Shown here: piece by piece, positions 1 through 54,066 of the stretch | Position numbering within the stretch: the first letter of the stretch is position 1 | Layout of the letters: every line of letters begins with the position of its first letter | Origin: Streptomyces sp. NBC_01244 | GTDB taxonomy: Bacteria; Actinomycetota; Actinomycetes; Streptomycetales; Streptomycetaceae | Direction: 5' to 3' | Length of the DNA stretch: 64,000 nucleotides | Assembly (NCBI RefSeq): GCF_035987325.1 | Contig: NZ_CP108488.1 | Location: forward strand, 1,736,001-1,800,000 | Translations under genes and position numbers: made by a program | The notes under the pieces: generated by a model | What the model was told of the DNA's origin: nothing | Database searches by the model: none | The model's input: only the letters and a program-made list of their open reading frames with translations

Positions 1-2573
1 GCAGCGCGCGGACCGGGCTCGCCGAGCAGGGCTGGAAGATCCACATATCGGCGCGGCTGGACCGGGCGCAGCACGTGCTCGACACCGTCGCCCGGATCTG
101 TTTCTCCGAAGGCGTGCCGTTCAAGCATCTGAGCGCCCGGCTCTTCTTCCTGTTCCTCCATCACAAACACGCAGGGCGGGCCCAGGCGGGCAAGTTCTGC
201 GCCGTCTACCCGCCGGACACCGCGACCGCCCGCCGGCTGCTGGAACGCCTGCGCGACGCGCTCGACGGGGAGGAGGGGCCGTACGTCCTCACCGACCGGC
301 GCTTTCGCGACTCGCGGACGGTCCACTACCGCTACGGCTCCTTCAGCGGCCACGGCCGGCTGCTGGCCGACGGCACCCGGCAGGGGCTGGTCCGCGACGG
401 CTCCGGCCGCGAGGTCCCGGACCTGCGGCTGCCCGCCTTCCACCTGCCCGCGGGGATCGCGGACCCCTTCGTCGAGCAGGAGGAGCAGCCGCACACGGGC
501 CCGATCCTGATCCGCGACTACGAGGTGACCCGCGCGGTGCGCCTGAGCAACGCGGGCGGCACCTACCAGGCCCGGGACCGGCGGACCGGCCGCACCGTCT
601 TCGTCAAGGAGGCCCGCGCCCACAACGGTCTGGTCTTCGACGGGACCGACGCGCAGCAGCGGCTGCGGCACGAGTACCGCGTGCTGCGCGAGCTGCACGC
701 GGCCGCCCCCGGGGTGGGCCCGGAGCCGCTGGACCACTTCACGGAGTGGGAGCACGACTTCCTCGTCACCGAGTACGTCTCCGGGCAGCCGCTGGTGGGC
801 TGGCTGAGCCGGTCCTCCCCGCTGGCCCGCGCCGACCGCACGGCCGGGTCCGTCGCCGCGTACTACGAGGCGTGCCGGCGCCTGCTGGCCGCGCTGGACG
901 CCTCGCTGGAGCGGCTGCACTCCGCCGGCTACCGCTTCGGTGACCTCAGCCTGGGCAACGTCATGGTCACGCCGTCGGGCGGGATCCGGCTGGTGGACTT
1001 CGAGGCGGCCTCGGCGCTGTCCGCGGCGCCCTCCGCAATGGGCACCCCGGGATTCACGCCGCCGCCCGGCGTGCGCCGGGCCGGCAGCGATCCGCTGCTG
1101 CAGGACCGGTACGGCATGTCGGCGGTCGCGCTCGCCTTCCTGGCGCCGTTCAACGAGATCGCCGAGCACGCGCCCGCCAACCTCGCGCTGCTGCGCCGCG
1201 ACCTGGCGGACGTGGCTCCGCCGCAGGACCTGTGGCAGCGGGCCACAGCCTTCCACCTGACGGGGAACCAGACGCAGGACCAGACCCAGGAGCAGACCCA
1301 GGACAAGGCGCAGGACAAGGCGCAGGACAAGGCGCGGGGCCAGGCCCAGGACGGTCCCGACCGCCTGCCCTCCCCCGCCGAGCTGGACACCGATCCTCGT
1401 GGCTGCCTCACCCGGCTGGCCGGGGAGGTGGCCGCGGGGCTGCTGGAGATGGCCGACGCCGACCGGCCGGAGTGGGCCTTCCCGCCCTCGCCGGAAGCGT
1501 TCCGGACGAACAACGTGTGCCTGGCCTACGGCACGGCCGGGGTGGTGCACGCCTTGCACCGCGCCGGGGCCGCGGTGCCGGAGGAGATCCGCGAACGGCT
1601 GCGCCGGGACACGCTGGCGCAGCGCGACGCGCTGCCCCCCGGACTGCTCGTCGGCTCGGCCGGCATCGCCCGGGTACTGGCCGGCCTCGGCCTGCTGGAC
1701 GAGGCCGCCAGCCTGCTCCGGGACGCCGACGACCACCCGCTCACCGCCTCCTGCGGCACGCTGGCCGGCGGGCGGGCCGGGGTCGGCCTGGGCTGGCTCG
1801 CCCTGCACCGACTGACCGGGGAGAGCAGCCACCTGGAGCGCGCCGCCGCGGCGGGGGAGGGCCTGCTGCGGACCCCCGACCTGCCTGCCACGCTCGGCGA
1901 GCACGACGCCCGCGGCCTGCTGCACGGCCGCTCGGGGCTCGCCCTCTTCCTCCACCGCCTGGCCCGAGACACCGGCGAGGCCCGCTACCTGGAGGCGGGC
2001 CGCCTGCTGCTCCACCAGGAGCTGGACCGGACCTTTCCGCTGGACGACGGCTCCCTGTCCATATCCGACCATGCGCGGCTCACCCGTGCCATGCCGTACC
2101 TGGCCACGGGCGCGGCCGGTGTCGCGACAGCGCTCACCCGCTACGTGGCCACCGCGCCGGACGAGCGCTGCGCCGCGGCGCTGCCGAGGCTGGTCGCCGG
2201 CATCCGGGTCTCCTGCGCCACGAAGGAGGCGGGCCTGTACCGGGGGCTGGCCGGACTGACCTGGTTCCTGACCGAGCACGCCGAGCACGCCGGCACGCAC
2301 GCCGCCGGCACGGACGCCGCCCGCGGGGACACCGCCCGCAGGGACGCCGTCCGCGCCGCGACCGGCTTGCTGAAGTACGCCGTCCCGTACCGGCGCGGTG
2401 TCCGCTTCCTCGGAGCGGGTTCGCAGCGGTTCACCGCCGACCTGTCCGGCGGCGGGGCCGGTGTCCTGCTGGCCCTCCACCGCCTGCTGGCCGGCCCGCT
2501 CCTGACGGAGCCCCACCGCGCACGTCCCGGGATCCCGGCAGCCGCCGGATCGCACCGGGCGGGCACCCCATGA
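1..2573 (+). CDS. Class III lanthipeptide synthetase LanKC, 5' end cut by window
   Basis: This enzyme would phosphorylate and eliminate Ser/Thr in a precursor peptide and then cyclise Cys onto the dehydro residues. The reading frame is open from base 3 and continues past the window edge; the first codons read EQGWKIHIS, typical of the LanKC lyase N-terminus. A kinase domain follows, with the VFVKEA lysine near base 600, a degenerate catalytic loop FGDLSLGN near 940 and the metal motif LVDFE near 1000. A Gln/Asp/Lys-rich linker built from repeated AQDK units lies at about 1265-1350. The C-terminal cyclase-like domain has GRAGVGLG and LYRGLAG where zinc-dependent LanC proteins have Cys and Cys-His, so the zinc ligands are absent and class III fits better than class IV. 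A precursor gene lies 85 bp downstream. I am confident of the family; the true start is outside the window. Confidence 0.92.
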   Translation, partial: SARTGLAEQGWKIHISARLDRAQHVLDTVARICFSEGVPFKHLSARLFFLFLHHKHAGRAQAGKFCAVYPPDTATARRLLERLRDALDGEEGPYVLTDRRFRDSRTVHYRYGSFSGHGRLLADGTRQGLVRDGSGREVPDLRLPAFHLPAGIADPFVEQEEQPHTGPILIRDYEVTRAVRLSNAGGTYQARDRRTGRTVFVKEARAHNGLVFDGTDAQQRLRHEYRVLRELHAAAPGVGPEPLDHFTEWEHDFLVTEYVSGQPLVGWLSRSSPLARADRTAGSVAAYYEACRRLLAALDASLERLHSAGYRFGDLSLGNVMVTPSGGIRLVDFEAASALSAAPSAMGTPGFTPPPGVRRAGSDPLLQDRYGMSAVALAFLAPFNEIAEHAPANLALLRRDLADVAPPQDLWQRATAFHLTGNQTQDQTQEQTQDKAQDKAQDKARGQAQDGPDRLPSPAELDTDPRGCLTRLAGEVAAGLLEMADADRPEWAFPPSPEAFRTNNVCLAYGTAGVVHALHRAGAAVPEEIRERLRRDTLAQRDALPPGLLVGSAGIARVLAGLGLLDEAASLLRDADDHPLTASCGTLAGGRAGVGLGWLALHRLTGESSHLERAAAAGEGLLRTPDLPATLGEHDARGLLHGRSGLALFLHRLARDTGEARYLEAGRLLLHQELDRTFPLDDGSLSISDHARLTRAMPYLATGAAGVATALTRYVATAPDERCAAALPRLVAGIRVSCATKEAGLYRGLAGLTWFLTEHAEHAGTHAAGTDAARGDTARRDAVRAATGLLKYAVPYRRGVRFLGAGSQRFTADLSGGGAGVLLALHRLLAGPLLTEPHRARPGIPAAAGSHRAGTP

Positions 2574-2579
2574 ACACCT

Positions 2580-2607
2580 GGGCACGGCGGCGAGCAGCCC
2601 CGTGCCC
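2580..2607 (+). other. Hairpin between LanKC and precursor gene
   Basis: Arms GGGCACGG (2580-2587) and CCGTGCCC (2600-2607) pair perfectly around a 12-nt loop. They begin 6 bp after the LanKC stop and end 51 bp before the precursor start. It could process or attenuate the transcript so that the small precursor is made in excess, but that role is inference. Confidence 0.45.
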
Positions 2608-2658
2608 GGGTACGCAGTTGTCAACCGACACGACCCGAGAAGAAAGTGGAGGACACCC

Positions 2659-2769
2659 ATGAGCCAGATCCTCGCGCTCCAGGCACTGGACACCGAGCCG
2701 GAGGCCGAATACTTCCCCTGCTTCAGCGTTGCCTGGAGCATCAGCGACATCTTCCCGGACCCGATGTAA
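2659..2769 (+). CDS. Lanthipeptide precursor peptide, 36 aa
   Basis: An ATG at 2659 follows a GGAGG ribosome-binding site (2648-2652) at 6-nt spacing, and the frame ends at TAA 2767. The 36-residue product begins MSQILALQAL; the ILxLQ stretch is the leader motif recognised by class III LanKC enzymes. An acidic stretch follows (DTEPEAE), then a putative core with one Cys at residue 21 and Ser at 23, 27 and 29, ending in IFPDPM. Its position directly downstream of LanKC, the leader motif and the strong RBS make this the likely substrate. The core is odd: the only Cys lies before all the Ser residues, whereas lanthionine and labionin rings in known class III products form with Ser upstream of Cys. 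No transporter gene follows. Confidence 0.85.
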   Translation: MSQILALQALDTEPEAEYFPCFSVAWSISDIFPDPM

Positions 2770-2805
2770 CCAGCCCCGTGTAACCAGCCCGGTGTAACCA
2801 GCCGG
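2765..2805 (+). repeat. Three tandem 14-bp units over the precursor stop codon
   Basis: Units TGTAACCAGCCCCG (2765-2778), TGTAACCAGCCCGG (2779-2792) and TGTAACCAGCCGG (2793-2805) follow head to tail. The first contains the real stop TAA. Because the period is not a multiple of three, the three TAA triplets at 2767, 2781 and 2795 fall in all three reading frames. Confidence 0.9.
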
Positions 2806-2810
2806 CATCC

Positions 2811-2857
2811 GCGGCGGGCCGGGACCGGTGGCCGAGCCGCCGGTCCCGGCCCGCCGC
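2811..2857 (+). terminator. Strong terminator after the lanthipeptide locus
   Basis: A perfect 18-bp stem (2811-2828 with 2840-2857) closes an 11-nt loop just after the triplicated stop region. No long T tract follows, as is usual in Streptomyces. It separates the lanthipeptide genes from the next gene. Confidence 0.85.
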
Positions 2858-2950
2858 GTTCCCCTGCCCCGCGGCGCGGCACGCTTCCCCCCGCGCACCG
2901 CCGATGGGGCCCGCATAATGGATGGAACGGCGCGTGGAAGGGGACGTCTC

Positions 2951-5014
2951 GTGCCATCGGCTCTGCCGGGGGGCGAGAAGGCTCACGGCCCGTTCTGGTC
3001 CGAGCCGGGGACGCTGCTGGAGCACGTGCCCGTGGCCGTCTTCGGCATCGATGACGGCGACCTCGTCTGTTACTGGGGGCCCGGCGCGCGGGACCTCTTC
3101 GGGTACGACTCCCCCGCCGTCCTGTCCAAGCCCGGCGCCGTTCTCTTCGCCGACGGGCCCCGGAGCGGATCCGATTCCTGTAGCCGGCTGACGGAGCGGG
3201 GCAGGACCCTCGGGTACTGGAGGGGCCGGCTGCCGGCACGGCATCGTGACGCCACGGTCTTCGAGTGCGGTTTCCGGGCCTTCTCCGTGACCGGAGCCGC
3301 AGGACGTTCGGTGGTGATGGTCCTGGCGAGCCGCAGCGGTGAACTCGACCGGGTCAAGACCAACCTCGCCTTCCTCGACGCCCTCTTCGAGACCTGCCCC
3401 ATCGGTCTGGTCATGCTCGACCCGGACCTGCGGTACGTCCACCTCAACCAGGCGCTCGCCGACATGGACGGCCTTCCGATCGAGGCGCACCTCGGGCGGC
3501 ACATGGACGAATTCATGATCATGTCCGATGGCGGCGAGTACCAGCGCATGCTCCGGGCCGTCGCGCTGGGCGGAGCGCCGGTCGTGGGGACGCTGGTGGG
3601 TCTGCGGCCGCGCGGACATCCGGACCGTGACCAGGTGCGGTCGGTGAGTTTCTTCCCCCTGAGTCAGGCGGTCGGCTCGCGCCCCGGAGTGGGCGGGCTG
3701 ATGGTGGACGTGACGGACCGGGAGCAGGCCATCCTGGAAGCCACCGCCAGCCGTCGGCGGCTGGCTCTGCTGGACGGGGCCTCCACTCGCATCGGGACCA
3801 CCCTGGACGTGAACATCACCGCCCAGGAGCTGGTCGACGCGTCGATGCCGGACTTCTGCGACGGCGCCGTGGTCGAGGTCGTGGAGTGGATGGACGAGGA
3901 CGAGGTCTTCGACCCGGCGAGATTGCTGGTCACCCGACGTATCGCCTCCGGGACGATCCTGCCGCCTCCGGCCACCGAACTCGTGAGCGGGGTGGAGACG
4001 GTGCGGTATCCGCCCGGCTCCGTCATCCACGACATGCTGCGAACCGGTCGTGCGATCTCCGCCGTGGTGAACGAGGACTTTCTGGCCCGGACCGTCCTCA
4101 TCGAGTCACGCGCGCGGCTCTTCGCCGAGAGCGGGTTGGCCTGCGTCCTCGTCGCCCCGCTCATCGCCAGGGGCACCGTCCAGGGGATCGCCATGTTCGG
4201 CCGGTCCGAGGACCGGCCGGCCTTCACCCGGGACGATGTCAGCCTGGCGGGTGAGCTCGCCTCACGTGCTGCGATCTGCCTGGACAACGCCCGTCTGTAC
4301 AGCCGTGTCCAGGACATCGCCCTCACACTGCAGCGGGCCCTGCTGCCCAGCGCGTTGGCGACCAGCCCGTACGTGGAGGTGGCGCACCGGTACGTGCCCG
4401 GCAGCCGGATCACCGAGGTCGGCGGCGACTGGTACGACGTGATCAACCTGCCCGACGGCCGGGTCGTCCTCGTGGTGGGCGACGTGATGGGGCACGGAGT
4501 GTCGGCCGCCGCGGCCATGGGCCGCCTCCGCATCACCACCAAGGCCCTGGCCAGGCACGACAGCGAGCCCGCCGAGCTGCTCGCCGAGCTCGACGCGTGC
4601 GCCCAGGAGGCCGGCATCGAGCTGGCGACGTGCCTGTACATCGTCTACGACCCGAAGACCGGCCGCGCCCGCATCGCCAGCGCCGGCCATCCCCCGCCCC
4701 TGATACTCCGACCGGACGGCACGGTGGAGACCATCGACGAGGTCCTGGGAGTGCCCCTCGGCGTCGGCGGCTTCCCCTTCCGGACGACCGAGATCGAACT
4801 CCCCGCGCACGCGACCCTCGCCCTGTACACCGACGGCCTCATCGAGGCACGCGGCCGGGACATCGAGGCCGGCCTGGAAGCACTGCGCACCGAACTGGGA
4901 GGAAAACCGGTGGCGTTGGAAGAAACGGCGGACCGCATCCTCGCGAACCTGCTGCCCACCCCGCCGACCGACGACACCGTTCTCATCCTCGCGCGCGTCC
5001 ACCGCGCCCCGTAG
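2951..5014 (+). CDS. PAS-GAF-SpoIIE serine phosphatase
   Basis: This is a PP2C-like (SpoIIE/RsbU class) serine phosphatase of about 687 residues, of the kind that acts on anti-sigma-factor antagonists. I chose the GTG at 2951 because GGAAGGGG lies about 7 nt upstream; in-frame starts as far up as 2828 would overlap the terminator. Order of domains: PAS near residues 20-115, a second PAS near 135-250, GAF near 270-435, and the phosphatase domain from about 455 to the end. Metal-binding acidic residues are visible in GGDWYD and GDVMGHG. Unlike the paralogue at 44750-47218 it has no C-terminal ATPase/anti-sigma domain. There are no membrane segments. The input it senses cannot be read from the sequence. 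Confidence 0.93.
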   Translation: MPSALPGGEKAHGPFWSEPGTLLEHVPVAVFGIDDGDLVCYWGPGARDLFGYDSPAVLSKPGAVLFADGPRSGSDSCSRLTERGRTLGYWRGRLPARHRDATVFECGFRAFSVTGAAGRSVVMVLASRSGELDRVKTNLAFLDALFETCPIGLVMLDPDLRYVHLNQALADMDGLPIEAHLGRHMDEFMIMSDGGEYQRMLRAVALGGAPVVGTLVGLRPRGHPDRDQVRSVSFFPLSQAVGSRPGVGGLMVDVTDREQAILEATASRRRLALLDGASTRIGTTLDVNITAQELVDASMPDFCDGAVVEVVEWMDEDEVFDPARLLVTRRIASGTILPPPATELVSGVETVRYPPGSVIHDMLRTGRAISAVVNEDFLARTVLIESRARLFAESGLACVLVAPLIARGTVQGIAMFGRSEDRPAFTRDDVSLAGELASRAAICLDNARLYSRVQDIALTLQRALLPSALATSPYVEVAHRYVPGSRITEVGGDWYDVINLPDGRVVLVVGDVMGHGVSAAAAMGRLRITTKALARHDSEPAELLAELDACAQEAGIELATCLYIVYDPKTGRARIASAGHPPPLILRPDGTVETIDEVLGVPLGVGGFPFRTTEIELPAHATLALYTDGLIEARGRDIEAGLEALRTELGGKPVALEETADRILANLLPTPPTDDTVLILARVHRAP

Positions 5015-50077: not shown

Positions 50078-50674
50078 TTAGAAGATGCTGCCGCCTCCGG
50101 CGCCGCCACCGCCGCCGAGGCCGCCGAACAGGCCACCGAAGCCGCCCTTGCCGCCCTTGCCGCCCTTGCCGCCCTCGAAGACGCCGAAGCCGCCACCGCC
50201 ACCCTTACCGCCGTTGCCGCCGATCAGGGTGCCGTCGCCGCCGTTGCCGGCGTTGCCGCCGCTGCCGCCGAAGAGGCCGCTGCCGCCACCGCCACCGTTG
50301 CCGCCCTTGCCGCCGATGACGCCTTCGCCACCGCCGCCACCGCCACCGCCGCCGCCACCGGAGAGGACGCCGTCGCCGCCCTTGCCTCCGTTGCCGCCGG
50401 CACCGCCGGTACCGAGAACGCTGCCCCCGCCGGAGCCGCCGGAGCCGCCACCGCCGCCGATGAGGCCGCCGCCGCCTTCCCCGCCGTCCCCTCCGGCGCC
50501 ACCGGCGGCCGGGAGGGCGGTGGCCACATGGGCCGGAGCCGGAGCCGCCGTCGCCATGGAGGCCGGAATGAGGACCCCTCCCGAGATCATGGCGGCCGAT
50601 GCGACCAGCGTCGCGATGCGGAATCCACGGCGGTTGGTGCGGGCGGTGTTGTTGGTGAGAGTCTTACGGTTCAT
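50078..50674 (-). CDS. Secreted PGRS-like glycine-rich protein
   Basis: A 198-residue exported protein. The signal peptide (FRIATLVASAAMISGGVLIP, cleavage near ATAAPAP) precedes about 145 residues that are over half glycine, in a loose GGxGGxGG periodicity with islands GLIGG, SVLGTGG, GVLSGG, GVIGGKGG, GLFGG, TLIGG, GVFEGG, GLFGG. The islands recur every 15-20 residues and contribute single hydrophobic residues, as in mycobacterial PE_PGRS tails, but there is no PE domain. It ends SIF. No Cys. Likely a cell-surface or extracellular structural protein. Confidence 0.8.
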   Translation of the reverse strand: MNRKTLTNNTARTNRRGFRIATLVASAAMISGGVLIPASMATAAPAPAHVATALPAAGGAGGDGGEGGGGLIGGGGGSGGSGGGSVLGTGGAGGNGGKGGDGVLSGGGGGGGGGGGEGVIGGKGGNGGGGGSGLFGGSGGNAGNGGDGTLIGGNGGKGGGGGFGVFEGGKGGKGGKGGFGGLFGGLGGGGGAGGGSIF

Positions 50675-50881: not shown

Positions 50882-51568
50882 TCAGAGGCCGCGGCGGCTG
50901 CGGTACGCGACCACGGAGACCCAGAGCAGGGCCGTGACGGCTCCGACGGCCAGCGTCAGGGTGCCGGCCGGGCCGCCGGTCATCGCCCAGCCGTTGCCGA
51001 TCAGGAGGGCGGTACCGGCGACCCGGGAGGCGATCGCGTACCGGCGGTTCCCGGCGCGGCCGAAGTGCCGGCCCAAGACGTAGCAGGCGGCGATCAGCGA
51101 GGTGAAGGTGATCGACCCGGCGGCGAAGTGGGCGTAGCTGTGCCAGGTGAGCGTGGCGGTCTCCACGGAGGGGGCGCCCAGGGGGAAGCCGTCGACCGGG
51201 TCCATGACGAAGGCTCCCGCGGCGATCATGCCGATGCCGGCGATCCGGACCAGCCGTGGCGCCCAGGTGGATCCGGGGGTGCCGCGCAGGGCCCGGCGCA
51301 GGCCGGTCGCCCCGATGGCGAGCAGGGTTCCGGCGAGCAGGAAGTTGGTGATCTGGAGCCAGCCGAGGCTTCCGTTGCTCAGCGCGCTCAGCGGGTGGCG
51401 GGTGATGTCGAAGCCCTGGCGGCTCGCGGCCTGGGTCAGGGAGACGACCGCCCACAGCGGGGAGGCCACGACCGCGCAGGTGAGCAGGGAGCGGGTGGTG
51501 GCGGAGGAGGAGGAGATGGTGGCGGGGGCGGGGGCGGAAGCGGTGGCGGTGGGGGTCCGGGTGCTCAT
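50882..51568 (-). CDS. DUF998-family membrane protein
   Basis: A 228-residue membrane protein. ATG 51568 follows GAGAGGT. Family features: ITRHPLSALSNGSLGWLQITNF, VMDPVDGFPLGAP and about six membrane helices. Function unknown. It is divergent from the YciI/sigma factor operon across a nested inverted repeat, and the two 5' leaders are themselves similar, which suggests shared control by the sigma factor. Confidence 0.85.
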   Translation of the reverse strand: MSTRTPTATASAPAPATISSSSATTRSLLTCAVVASPLWAVVSLTQAASRQGFDITRHPLSALSNGSLGWLQITNFLLAGTLLAIGATGLRRALRGTPGSTWAPRLVRIAGIGMIAAGAFVMDPVDGFPLGAPSVETATLTWHSYAHFAAGSITFTSLIAACYVLGRHFGRAGNRRYAIASRVAGTALLIGNGWAMTGGPAGTLTLAVGAVTALLWVSVVAYRSRRGL

Positions 51569-51621: not shown

Positions 51622-51683
51622 ACGTCGAACCCGAAAATTGACAGGGAATGCGCGCGTTCCCTGTCACATGGCCGGTTCGACGT
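51622..51683. promoter_or_regulatory. 62-bp nested perfect inverted repeat, divergent promoter of the ECF42 locus
   Basis: Outer arms ACGTCGAACC (51622-51631) and GGTTCGACGT (51674-51683) and inner arms TGACAGGGAA (51639-51648) and TTCCCTGTCA (51657-51666) are each perfect. Both 7-bp spacers are equal and the centre is TGCGCGCG, so the layout is symmetric. Beyond the arms the leaders toward the two divergent genes remain partly alignable. This looks like two copies of one promoter arranged back to back, one serving DUF998 and one serving yciI-sigma. Confidence 0.8.
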
Positions 51684-51732: not shown

Positions 51733-52056
51733 ATGCGCTACCTGATGACGACGAAGCCTTCCGACGCCGCCCCCGACGAGCGGCTGTACGCGGAAATGGG
51801 CAGGTTCATCGAAGAGCTGACGGCGGCCGGCGTACTGCTGGCCACGGGCGGCCTGGAACCGGGCGGCATCCTGGTGGCCTCCTCCGGCGAGGAGATCACC
51901 GTGACGGACGGGCCCTTCGCCGAGGCCAAGGAGGCCGTGGCCGGTTTCGCGCTGATCGAGGTCCGCTCCAGGGAAGAGGCCATCGAGCTGGCCCGCCGCT
52001 TCCGCAGGATCGTCGGTGACGGAGAGAGCGTGGTCCAGCAGGTCTTCGGCCCCTGA
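51733..52056 (+). CDS. YciI/DGPF-family protein
   Basis: A 107-residue dimeric alpha/beta-barrel protein. ATG 51733 follows GAGGGAG. The DGPFAEAKE motif names the family. DGPF genes are characteristically linked to ECF42-type sigma factors, and here the sigma gene starts 3 bp after the stop. A role as modulator of the sigma factor has been proposed for the family; it is not shown by this sequence. Confidence 0.92.
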   Translation: MRYLMTTKPSDAAPDERLYAEMGRFIEELTAAGVLLATGGLEPGGILVASSGEEITVTDGPFAEAKEAVAGFALIEVRSREEAIELARRFRRIVGDGESVVQQVFGP

Positions 52057-52059
52057 CCC

Positions 52060-54066
52060 GTGCCGGACACCTCGCGGACGATCGACGCGGTCTGGAAGCT
52101 CGAATCGGCCAGGATCATCGCCACGCTCACGCGTCTGGTGCGCGATGTCGGCCTGGCCGAGGAACTGGCCCAGGACGCGCTCGTCGCCGCGCTCGAACAG
52201 TGGCCGGTCGCCGGGGTCCCGGACAACCCCGGCGCCTGGCTGACGACCACGGCCAAACGCCGGGCGGTCGACCACATCCGGCGCTCCCGGATGCTGACGG
52301 AAAAGCAGGAGCAGCTCGCCCACCAGCTGGAGGAGAAACGGGAGCACCGGGAGGACCAGGAGCCCGAACAGGACGACGTCCTGCGGCTGATGTTCCTCTC
52401 CTGCCACCCCGTGCTGCCGGCCGAGGCCCGTGCGGCCCTCACCCTCCGGCTGCTGGGCGGCCTGACGGCCGAGGAGATCGCGCGGGCCTTCCTCGTCACG
52501 GCGACCGCCGTCACCCGTCGGATCGCCGCGGCCAAGCGCACGCTGGCCGAGCACCGCGTGCCCTTCGACCTGCCGGAGGAGACGGAGCTGCCCGAGCGGC
52601 TGTCCTCGGTGCTGGAGGTCATCTACCTGATCTTCAACGAGGGCTACTCGGCCACCTCCGGCGACGATCTGATGCGGCCCGGACTCTGCCTGGAAGCGCT
52701 CCGGCTGGGCCGGCTGCTGGCCGAGCTGGCGCCCCGGGAGGCCGAGGTCCACGCCCTGGTCGCGCTGATGGAGATCCAGGCCTCCCGTTCGGCGGCGCGC
52801 ACCGGGCCCTCGGGCGAGCCCGTCCAGCTCCACGAGCAGAACCGGGGGCGCTGGGACCAGCTGCTCGTACGCCGCGGATTCACCGCGATGCTGCGGGCGC
52901 GGGAGGCAGGCGGGGCCCCCGGCCCGTACATGCTGCAAGCGGCGATCGCCGTGTGCCACGCACAGGCACGCACCGCCGAGGAGACCGACTGGGCGCAGAT
53001 CGCGACCCTGTACGGGGCCTTGGCGCGGCTGCTGCCGACGGCGGTGGTCCAGCTCAACCGGGCGGTGGCGCTCGGGATGGCCCACGGGCCGCAGGCCGGC
53101 CTCGACCTGGTGGACTACCTGGTCGCCGATCCCGTGCTCCGCGACTACCACCTCCTCCCCAGTGTCCGGGGAGACCTGCTGCTGCGCCTGGACCGCGGCC
53201 CGGAGGCGCGGCTGGAGTTCCTCCGGGCGGAGGCCCTGGCCAAGAACGCCGCCGAGCGCGCCTTCCTGCGCCGGCGCGCGGAAGAGGTCCCCTCCACCGG
53301 CGGCCCGGCCGATCCGGCACCGGGTCAGACCCTCGGCCGGGCCGCGGAGGGCTTCCTGGGCCGGGCGGAGCTGGACGCGGCGACGGTCCGCTCGTACGGG
53401 CAGACCCTGCGGCGGCTGCGCCTGGACCTCGGCGACGACACGCCGCTGTCCGGCCTGACGTCCGGGGAGGTGACACGGGTGTGCTCGGCCGCCTGGGGCG
53501 CTGCGGCGGCCAGGACCTGGAACCGGCACCGCTCGGCCGTACGCTCCTTCGGCGCCTGGGCCGGCGTGGACGGGCTCGCGGCAGGGCTGGAGCGACGCGC
53601 CGAGCCCCTCCCCCGGGGCTCCGCCCTGGGCCCCGTACAGCTCGACGCGCTCTGGAGCGACCCCGAAGTGCCCCTGCGGGAGCGGACGTTGTGGCGGCTC
53701 CTGCACGAGTCGGGGGCGGGGGTGAAGGCCGTCCTGTCCCTGAACGTGGAGGACCTGGACCTGGAGGACCGCCGGGCCCGCGCGGGCCGCGCGTGGGTGA
53801 GCTGGCGCTCCGGTACGGCCCGGCTCCTGCCCCTGCTGCTGGCCGGGCGCACCCGGGGCCCGGTGTTCCTCTCCGAGCGGCGTCCCGGACCGGCCCGCAC
53901 CCCCGGCCCGGCCGACCTCTGCCCGGACACGGGCCGGCGCCGTCTGTCCTACGAGCGCGCCGAGCACCTCTTCAAGGAGACCACCAGACCCCTGGACCCG
54001 GCCCGCGAGGGCTACACCCTGCGCCGCCTCAAACCCGCTCTGCGACCGGCCGAAGACACTCCCTAG
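52060..54066 (+). CDS. ECF42-type sigma factor fused to a degenerate tyrosine-recombinase domain
   Basis: A 668-residue protein, GTG 52060. Residues about 8-80 form sigma2 (VRDVGLAEELAQDALVAALE, NPGAWLTTTAKRRAVDHIRR), about 110-170 sigma4 (TLRLLGGLTAEEIARAFLV), and 185-405 the helical C-terminal extension of the ECF42 group (YLIFNEGYSATSGDDLMRP). The group normally ends here. A short Pro/Gly linker (about 408-420) then leads to a SAM-like core-binding domain (AATVRSYGQTLRRLRLDLGD, ARTWNRHRSAVRSFGAW) and a catalytic-like domain (RERTLWRLLHESGAG, VLSLNVEDLDLEDRRARAG, RLSYERAEHLF). Catalytic Arg I is Gly in ESGAGVKAVL, the HxxR box is replaced by YTLRRLKPA, and the chain stops before the Tyr. 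It should bind DNA without recombining it. Confidence 0.9.
   Translation: MPDTSRTIDAVWKLESARIIATLTRLVRDVGLAEELAQDALVAALEQWPVAGVPDNPGAWLTTTAKRRAVDHIRRSRMLTEKQEQLAHQLEEKREHREDQEPEQDDVLRLMFLSCHPVLPAEARAALTLRLLGGLTAEEIARAFLVTATAVTRRIAAAKRTLAEHRVPFDLPEETELPERLSSVLEVIYLIFNEGYSATSGDDLMRPGLCLEALRLGRLLAELAPREAEVHALVALMEIQASRSAARTGPSGEPVQLHEQNRGRWDQLLVRRGFTAMLRAREAGGAPGPYMLQAAIAVCHAQARTAEETDWAQIATLYGALARLLPTAVVQLNRAVALGMAHGPQAGLDLVDYLVADPVLRDYHLLPSVRGDLLLRLDRGPEARLEFLRAEALAKNAAERAFLRRRAEEVPSTGGPADPAPGQTLGRAAEGFLGRAELDAATVRSYGQTLRRLRLDLGDDTPLSGLTSGEVTRVCSAAWGAAAARTWNRHRSAVRSFGAWAGVDGLAAGLERRAEPLPRGSALGPVQLDALWSDPEVPLRERTLWRLLHESGAGVKAVLSLNVEDLDLEDRRARAGRAWVSWRSGTARLLPLLLAGRTRGPVFLSERRPGPARTPGPADLCPDTGRRRLSYERAEHLFKETTRPLDPAREGYTLRRLKPALRPAEDTP

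Follow-up and report, generated by a model that had tools for sequence, protein, structure and literature searches.

An ECF42-type sigma factor in which a domesticated tyrosine recombinase domain has probably taken over -35 recognition

Sigma-I factors, in which a C-terminal domain other than sigma4 reads the -35 element, are among the closest systems to the one reported here; to our knowledge that domain does not have a recombinase fold, and no decayed sigma4 is left. The sigma-I proteins of Clostridium thermocellum resemble the present protein in being sigma70-family members with an unusual domain organisation and mode of promoter recognition, as described for them (PMC10575876). The recombinase fold serves as a DNA-binding regulator, a role that we also propose for the present protein, in MrpR of prophage SPbeta and SroF of phi3T; MrpR, which no longer recombines DNA, has a 15-bp site, and the authors of that work suspect that recombinases have been recruited more widely as transcription factors (PMC10516654). 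Both, however, are stand-alone phage repressors, whereas the tail described below is fused to a sigma factor and is apparently part of promoter recognition; the fold and catalytic loss of MrpR-like regulators are seen in this tail, and its putative sequence-specific binding in promoters comes from motif co-occurrence. Ordinary ECF42 factors, for example Sven_0747 of S. venezuelae and ECF-10 of P. putida, have the same sigma2, sigma4 and DUF6596 domains, DGPF/YCII neighbour and -10 element CGAC (PMC8999054). The fused factors differ from them in the extra recombinase domain, in a 13-bp arm that stands in for TGTCGA, in a decayed sigma4 helix and, usually, in a divergent DUF998 gene. The literature searched, with incomplete coverage of ECF42, describes dead recombinases as promoter-binding repressors and the sigma-I recognition mode, and we found in it no description of an ECF or ECF42 sigma factor fused to an integrase or recombinase.

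The stretch of DNA that we analyzed, hereafter the window, comprises 64,000 nucleotides of Streptomyces sp. NBC_01244 and encodes such a fusion:

52060..54066, + strand: ECF42-type sigma factor with an in-frame, catalytically dead, C-terminally truncated tyrosine recombinase (668 aa)
52111..52290, + strand: sigma2 domain, residues 18-77, -10 recognition (Pfam PF04542)
52387..52545, + strand: sigma4 domain, residues 110-162 (Pfam PF08281)
52597..52899, + strand: DUF6596, part of the ECF42 helical extension, residues 180-280 (Pfam PF20239)
53281..53322, + strand: low-confidence linker, about residues 408-421 (AF2 pLDDT < 50 at 414-420)
53377..53562, + strand: core-binding (SAM-like) domain of the recombinase, residues 440-501 (Pfam PF02899, fold match)
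53611..54024, + strand: remnant of the recombinase catalytic domain, about residues 518-655 (sequence and fold comparison)

An earlier sequence-only reading had taken residues 1-405 for an ECF42-type sigma factor with its helical extension and the remainder for a core-binding and catalytic-like integrase domain, and both assignments were borne out. Pfam finds sigma2, sigma4 and DUF6596, and the protein thus has the ECF42 domain set of sigma2 and sigma4 followed by a C-terminal helical (DUF6596/TPR-like) extension; in the tail, PF02899 and the fold match agree, and the core-binding fold, the catalytic-domain fold and homologous sequence together show descent from a tyrosine recombinase. No matches were obtained when the tail was compared with the PDB by profile sequence search at a threshold of 0.01. 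The catalytic remnant, whose fold stops at the HxxR box, has none of Arg I, Lys, HxxR, His/Trp and Tyr; in sigma4, the recognition helix (about residues 146-157) is decayed, with Ala157 where ordinary ECF42 factors have Arg. The full-length AF2 model has a pTM of 0.52, and its pose of the tail against the sigma part is unreliable.

The fusion is an old family found in many actinobacterial genera and not a one-off. At least 605 proteins match the tail (with length limits taken from the whole protein); among the matches listed, most are named sigma factors, with DUF6596 shown, and they come from Streptosporangium, Planomonospora, Amycolatopsis, Saccharopolyspora, Streptomyces and others. The proposed check for the same fusion in other Streptomyces found a clear fused copy in 17 of 295 sampled genomes, all 17 with sigma factor and tail confirmed in one frame; weak or partial matches, as in G209 and G290, are outside these 17 and may be fused remnants. 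When one genome per species was scanned, the best 80 of 288 confirmed stretches gave 80 loci from many actinobacterial genera, comprising 75 with both halves in one frame, three with a broken frame and two stand-alone recombinases; the window gene has the same one-frame join as the 75. Its position behind a DGPF gene is likewise shared, 76 of the 78 sigma-encoding loci having one, and 63 of 76 loci have DUF998 as a divergent neighbour. The module of DUF998 gene, dyad, YciI gene and fused sigma gene is also carried by a linear Streptomyces plasmid (L276, NZ_CP108089.1, 1343-4726), and annotated sigma factors on three S. anulatus plasmids (H4-H6) match the tail family.

Upstream of the window gene lie its operon partner, a divergent gene and, between them, two candidate promoters arranged as a dyad:

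51733..52056, + strand: DGPF/YCII-domain gene, first gene of the operon (Pfam PF03795)
51657..51682, + strand: putative compound promoter of the DGPF-sigma operon (arm TTCCCTGTCACAT at 51657-51669, 8 nt, -10 CGACG at 51678-51682)
51623..51648, - strand: putative mirror compound promoter of the divergent DUF998 gene (arm TTCCCTGTCAATT at 51636-51648, -10 CGACG at 51623-51627)
51636..51669, no strand: dyad of two 13-bp arms with an 8-bp spacer (51649-51656)
50882..51568, - strand: divergent DUF998 gene (Pfam PF06197), the conserved divergent partner

We set the start of the DUF998 gene at the ATG at 51568 because a longer ORF, to 51715, would cross the promoter. The mirror arm TTCCCTGTCAATT has two mismatches to the consensus, and the inner 9 bp of the two arms pair perfectly as an inverted repeat, GACAGGGAA-8-TTCCCTGTC. 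The CGAC of the predicted -10 element is present (as CGACG), and there is no TGTCGA at 17 nt from it in the window promoter, whereas the ordinary ECF42 paralogue of the same genome (L148) has a TGTCGA -35 element. The gene next to DUF998, at 50078-50674 on the - strand, encodes a protein of 198 aa that is rich in glycine; its N-terminus looks signal-like by eye, and Pfam gives no match at E 0.01.

The promoter motif of ECF42 factors is reportedly TGTCGA/CGAC, from work by Liu in 2018. Among ordinary ECF42 operons, with the fused L236 removed, TGTCGA-N17-CGAC precedes 28 of 30 from the genus, including that of the window genome's own paralogue, and TGTCGA-N17-CGAC/CGTC precedes 20 of 29 from other genera (48/59 combined); within the 1.3 kb searched, nine of these 29 have no TGTCGA box. 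None of the 59 ordinary loci encodes the tail or has the arm at up to two mismatches on either strand, and an arm-like word with three mismatches occurs somewhere in four of them. For the fused operons we counted 77 upstream regions (the 80 loci without the stand-alone L107 and L110 and without L033 and L077, which have no DGPF match, plus the window). The arm TTCCCTGTCACAT is found at 10 or more of 13 bases and in promoter orientation in 73 of the 77, the mirror arm in 70 and both arms in 68, and CGACG starts 8-9 nt past the arm in 67/73 right-arm and 61/70 left-arm matches. The arm starts roughly where the -35 hexamer would lie and extends into the spacer, and 70 of the 77 regions were classed as having the arm at -35 (type B). 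The -10 element is thus common to both kinds of operon, and in most fused ones the arm stands in place of the -35 hexamer.

The spacing of the two arms varies. Among the 68 two-arm regions the spacer is 8 bp in 52, 9 bp in nine and 10 bp in two, with 12, 16, 22 and 55 bp and an overlapping order once each, and a single arm only is found at L055, L064, L079 and, of the second promoter type described below (type A), L108 and L211. As the spacer is not fixed and single arms occur, a dimer is not required; dimer binding is possible, judging from the arrangement of the arms, and would not be obligatory. The idea of the dyad as an obligatory operator is weakened by type-A loci with tandem direct arms. 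The converse, that it is a mere by-product of back-to-back promoters, fits most cases (DUF998 at 63/76), but six loci (L072, L073, L080, L085, L099 and L103) keep a second arm, at a spacer of 8 bp (9 in L072), with no second -10 within 20 nt beyond it. Three further groups of loci depart from the usual arrangement. At L061, L097 and L098 the operon-side (right) arm is seemingly missing (L097 by eye), the mirror arm facing DUF998 is kept and directly before the DGPF start there is a sequence that by eye resembles TANNNT; these loci may have given up autoregulation while keeping the DUF998 target. L099, L103 and L109 have the same change in both arms, TGTCGC/GCGACA against TGTCAC/GTGACA, which suggests that arms co-vary with the local tail. 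At L277 (G004, about 2355-4776 in reverse-complement coordinates), two ORFs, one of them MFS-like by eye, separate the dyad from the DGPF-sigma operon, and the promoter thus now faces new genes.

The composite of arm and -10 is rare. Matches to TTCCCTGTCANNTN{6,9}CGACG number two in the window's own 10.0-Mb genome, both in the window's intergenic region (51623-51648, - strand; 51657-51682, + strand). The pattern occurs in 16 of the 295 Streptomyces genomes, 15 of which belong to the 17 with the fusion, against 2/295 for a reversed-pattern control; the two fused genomes with no exact match, G227 (= L040) and G269 (= L279), have the arm with one mismatch. The lone composite match of G183, a genome with no tail match among those listed, looks like chance, and two other sites in the window's genome that resemble the arm with one mismatch (L146, L147) were set aside, having no CGACG at 8-9 nt.

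To compare sigma4 domains, we aligned the sigma parts of 59 ordinary and 71 type-B factors over 399 positions; L087, first classed AB, was assigned to type B by hand. Arg157 is kept in 59/59 ordinary and 0/71 type-B factors, and residue 157 shows the greatest gain in variability of all 399 positions. The second greatest gain is at residue 150, which is Thr in 55 of the 59 ordinary and 9 of the 71 type-B factors, and the most relaxed 13-residue window starts at 145 and corresponds to the recognition helix; on average over all positions, variability is lower in type B than among ordinary factors. Residues 157 and 150 align with R176 and T169 of E. coli sigmaE (2h27), where R176 forms a bond to the G-35 base and T169 makes contact at position -34 (PMC6713349). 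Six fused rows with no clear promoter class (L032, L061, L077, L097, L098 and L102) were kept outside this comparison; among them Arg157 is absent from five and present in L098.

A second promoter type is found at eight fused loci (type A, INTERMEDIATES: L090, L108, L208-L211, L213 and L219), where the arm occurs as single or tandem direct repeats upstream of a normal or near-normal TGTCGA promoter. The nearest arm is 28-41 bp upstream of the TGTCGA-type promoter where this was measured (L090, L108, L208, L211 and L219), and near-canonical boxes are seen by eye in L209, L210 and L213. All eight type-A factors keep Arg157. Five also keep the C-terminal part of the recombinase, and these full-length tails, which group with Microbispora pieces, have an intact HxxR, Pro in place of Arg I and Phe or Leu in place of Tyr. 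Type A may show an earlier state. In a tree of 81 sigma rows, the 44 fused rows all group together in a single clade (SH-aLRT 99) nested among non-fused DUF6596 sigma factors, nearest to the non-fused L223 and L230, and types A and B are sister clades; in a tree of 67 tail rows, the fused tails and the Microbispora P0205 and P0237 form one clade (95) within the stand-alone recombinase family. From type B, 36 sigma rows entered the first tree and 27 tails the second. Both fit a single origin of the fusion, as far as sequence comparison goes, and types A and B represent one evolutionary split, their rows not being independent.

The arm itself leads back to stand-alone recombinases. Those of the P0175 group (e.g., Actinomadura L107 and L178 = G519) are XerC/D-like and 52-57% identical to the tail, and three loci of this nearest group (L110, L178 and L107) have dyads of the same arms as the fused operons, with no -10 element; they differ from the fused tail in keeping R-K-H-R-H-Y, in a 7-bp dyad spacer and in having no sigma domain. 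The dyad of L110, GTGTGACAGGGAA-7-TTCCCTGTCACAT, is about 0.25 kb upstream of its gene, the product of which (P0187) itself has no Arg I. L178 has a perfect dyad about 0.9 kb upstream, and at L107 the dyad ATGTGACAGGGAA-7-TTCCCTGTCACgg, with two mismatches in the right arm, is about 1.6 kb upstream with another ORF between, and a single exact arm follows 77 bp past it. A fragment 80% identical to P0175 over its end (L204) has no arm within its 3.4 kb. Dyads built in this way also occur at more distant members, where the arms diverge progressively: TTCTCTGTCACAC (L192), TTCTGTGTCACAC (L273), TTATCCGGTAG (L194), TTATCTGCGGTAAC (L202) and TTTACTGCGGC (L200). Among the 16 stand-alone loci scanned for dyads, L190, L197, L201 and L207 have none and some others have unrelated dyads only; dyads of at least 13 at a spacer of 7-8 bp were absent from 20 single-base shuffles of a 10-kb locus. 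That stand-alone relatives' dyads and fused promoters have the arm in common suggests that it belongs to the recombinase.

Stand-alone members often have a 7-bp-spacer dyad upstream (a single arm in L190), with arms that differ by subfamily, and an extra single arm lies 77-78 bp beyond the first at L107 (3355-3464), L190-L192 (about 1330-1460) and L273 (2846-2956). By their layout of core and accessory arm these sites look like transposon resolution sites, the likeness being to TnpI and its IRS, and the mer operon beside L273 and the Tn3-family transposase beside L274, both more distant members of the family, suggest TnpI-like resolvases.

The missing Arg I, HxxR and Tyr noted in the window tail are part of a general loss. 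The catalytic set is nearly complete in 27 stand-alone relatives (Arg I 26, Lys 25, first His 26, second Arg 27, next His 27, Tyr 27), whereas 78 type-B tails, including the three broken-frame loci, keep Arg I in two, Lys in two, the first His in five, the second Arg in 33, the next His in one and Tyr in none, and nearly all stop shortly past the HxxR position. Similarly, none of the eight type-A tails has Arg I, Lys or Tyr, the Tyr position being Phe in four and Leu in one. Over all 86 fused tails Tyr is present in none and Arg I in two, and we therefore rejected a live recombinase. The tail is nonetheless under purifying selection despite its lost catalysis: in five pairs dN/dS is 0.24-0.49 for the tail and 0.14-0.31 for the sigma part, a value of 2.7 for the core-binding part of the closest pair coming from very few changes and being treated as noise.

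Taken together, these data make it quite probable, in our view, that a domesticated tyrosine recombinase domain has taken over -35 recognition in an ECF42 sigma factor, DNA binding by the tail being inferred from the company that the arm keeps. The suggestion that a sigma factor with a second DNA-binding module could recognize a compound promoter is strongly supported by the arm at -35, the decay of the sigma4 helix and the arm near stand-alone relatives; the module would, however, replace the -35 reading of sigma4 and be more than an addition to it. Were the tail instead to bind the arm as an autorepressor or operator brake in the manner of MrpR, with another holoenzyme starting the operon, the overlap of arm and -35 position and the seeming lack of a right arm on the operon side at L061, L097 and L098 would fit, and dead tyrosine recombinases are known as repressors (PMC10516654). 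Most loci nevertheless retain the ECF42 -10 at 8-9 nt from the arm on either side, sigma2 is conserved, and a pure repressor leaves unexplained that -35 reading by sigma4 decays only where the arm replaces TGTCGA; we regard such a brake as unlikely. Quite improbable is a sigma4 domain that evolved a new specificity and reads the arm itself while the tail does something else, such as contacting another protein. The arm does start at about the -35 hexamer position, yet it is nearly invariant, and the positions with the largest gain in type-B variability lie in the recognition helix, contrary to what a reader would show, on which ground we rejected this as the main reading; moreover, an ECF -35 element of 13 bp would be unusually long, and stand-alone recombinases without a sigma domain have the same arm nearby.

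The geometry of 13-bp arms and a 7-8 bp spacer resembles recombination sites, loxP being the basis of this likeness, and the arms might then be live recombination or resolution sites of stand-alone recombinases elsewhere in the genome, with the fused tail a decaying passenger. This would leave the dyad of the window genome, which is kept in a genome with no other tail match at E<=1e-3, the tracking of the fused gene by the arm across 295 genomes, the nearly fixed position of the arm relative to the -10 and the purifying selection on the tail unaccounted for, and we give it very little credence. Public records (P0122-P0138) name the tail alone 'site-specific integrase', P0126 inside P0038 for example, and such NCBI names could point to an assembly or annotation artefact joining two genes; in three of four compared pairs, however, the 'integrase' lies within the fused protein in the same frame as the sigma factor, and independent genomes (75/80 loci in one frame) led us to reject an artefact or chance fusion, whose probability we consider negligible. 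The 'integrase' records may come from split annotation or may hint that an internal start gives a tail-only protein.

Under takeover of -35 recognition by the recombinase domain, an ECF42 gene would have been fused once to a recombinase of an actinobacterial family, and the probable order of events is fusion, anchoring upstream, movement of the arm into the -35 position, decay of sigma4 reading, and loss of catalysis and the C-terminus. The type-B state would be the outcome, in which the arm replaced the -35 hexamer and the sigma4 Arg, the recombinase catalytic residues and the C-terminal end were lost. In such a factor the tail would grip one arm and sigma2 would read the -10 element TTCGACG, with CGACG starting 8-9 nt on, upon which RNA polymerase would start the DGPF-sigma operon; the divergent DUF998 gene would be started by another chain, bound to the mirror arm, and the factor would switch on itself and its neighbour from one 13-8-13 bp dyad. 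The DGPF protein and the DUF6596 extension probably join in signal sensing, as proposed for ordinary ECF42 (PMC8999054). A recombinase clamp on the arm, which covers the -35 hexamer and much of the spacer, may clash with the polymerase. For the whole picture, with sigma4 demoted to a scaffold, a transposon recombinase reading the -35, two copies on a lox-like 13-8-13 dyad firing divergent promoters and type A as half-way relatives, we hold a leaning in favour, somewhat better than even.

If this reading is correct, a sigma factor has changed its promoter specificity by gaining a foreign DNA-binding domain and not through point changes in sigma4, and the machinery of transcription initiation has recruited a mobile-element recombinase. 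Living genomes would then hold the unfused, the intermediate and the final state side by side, which makes the origin of new sigma -35 specificities directly testable. Additionally, a promoter so specific that it occurs in one intergenic region in 10 Mb could be an orthogonal expression switch in actinomycetes.
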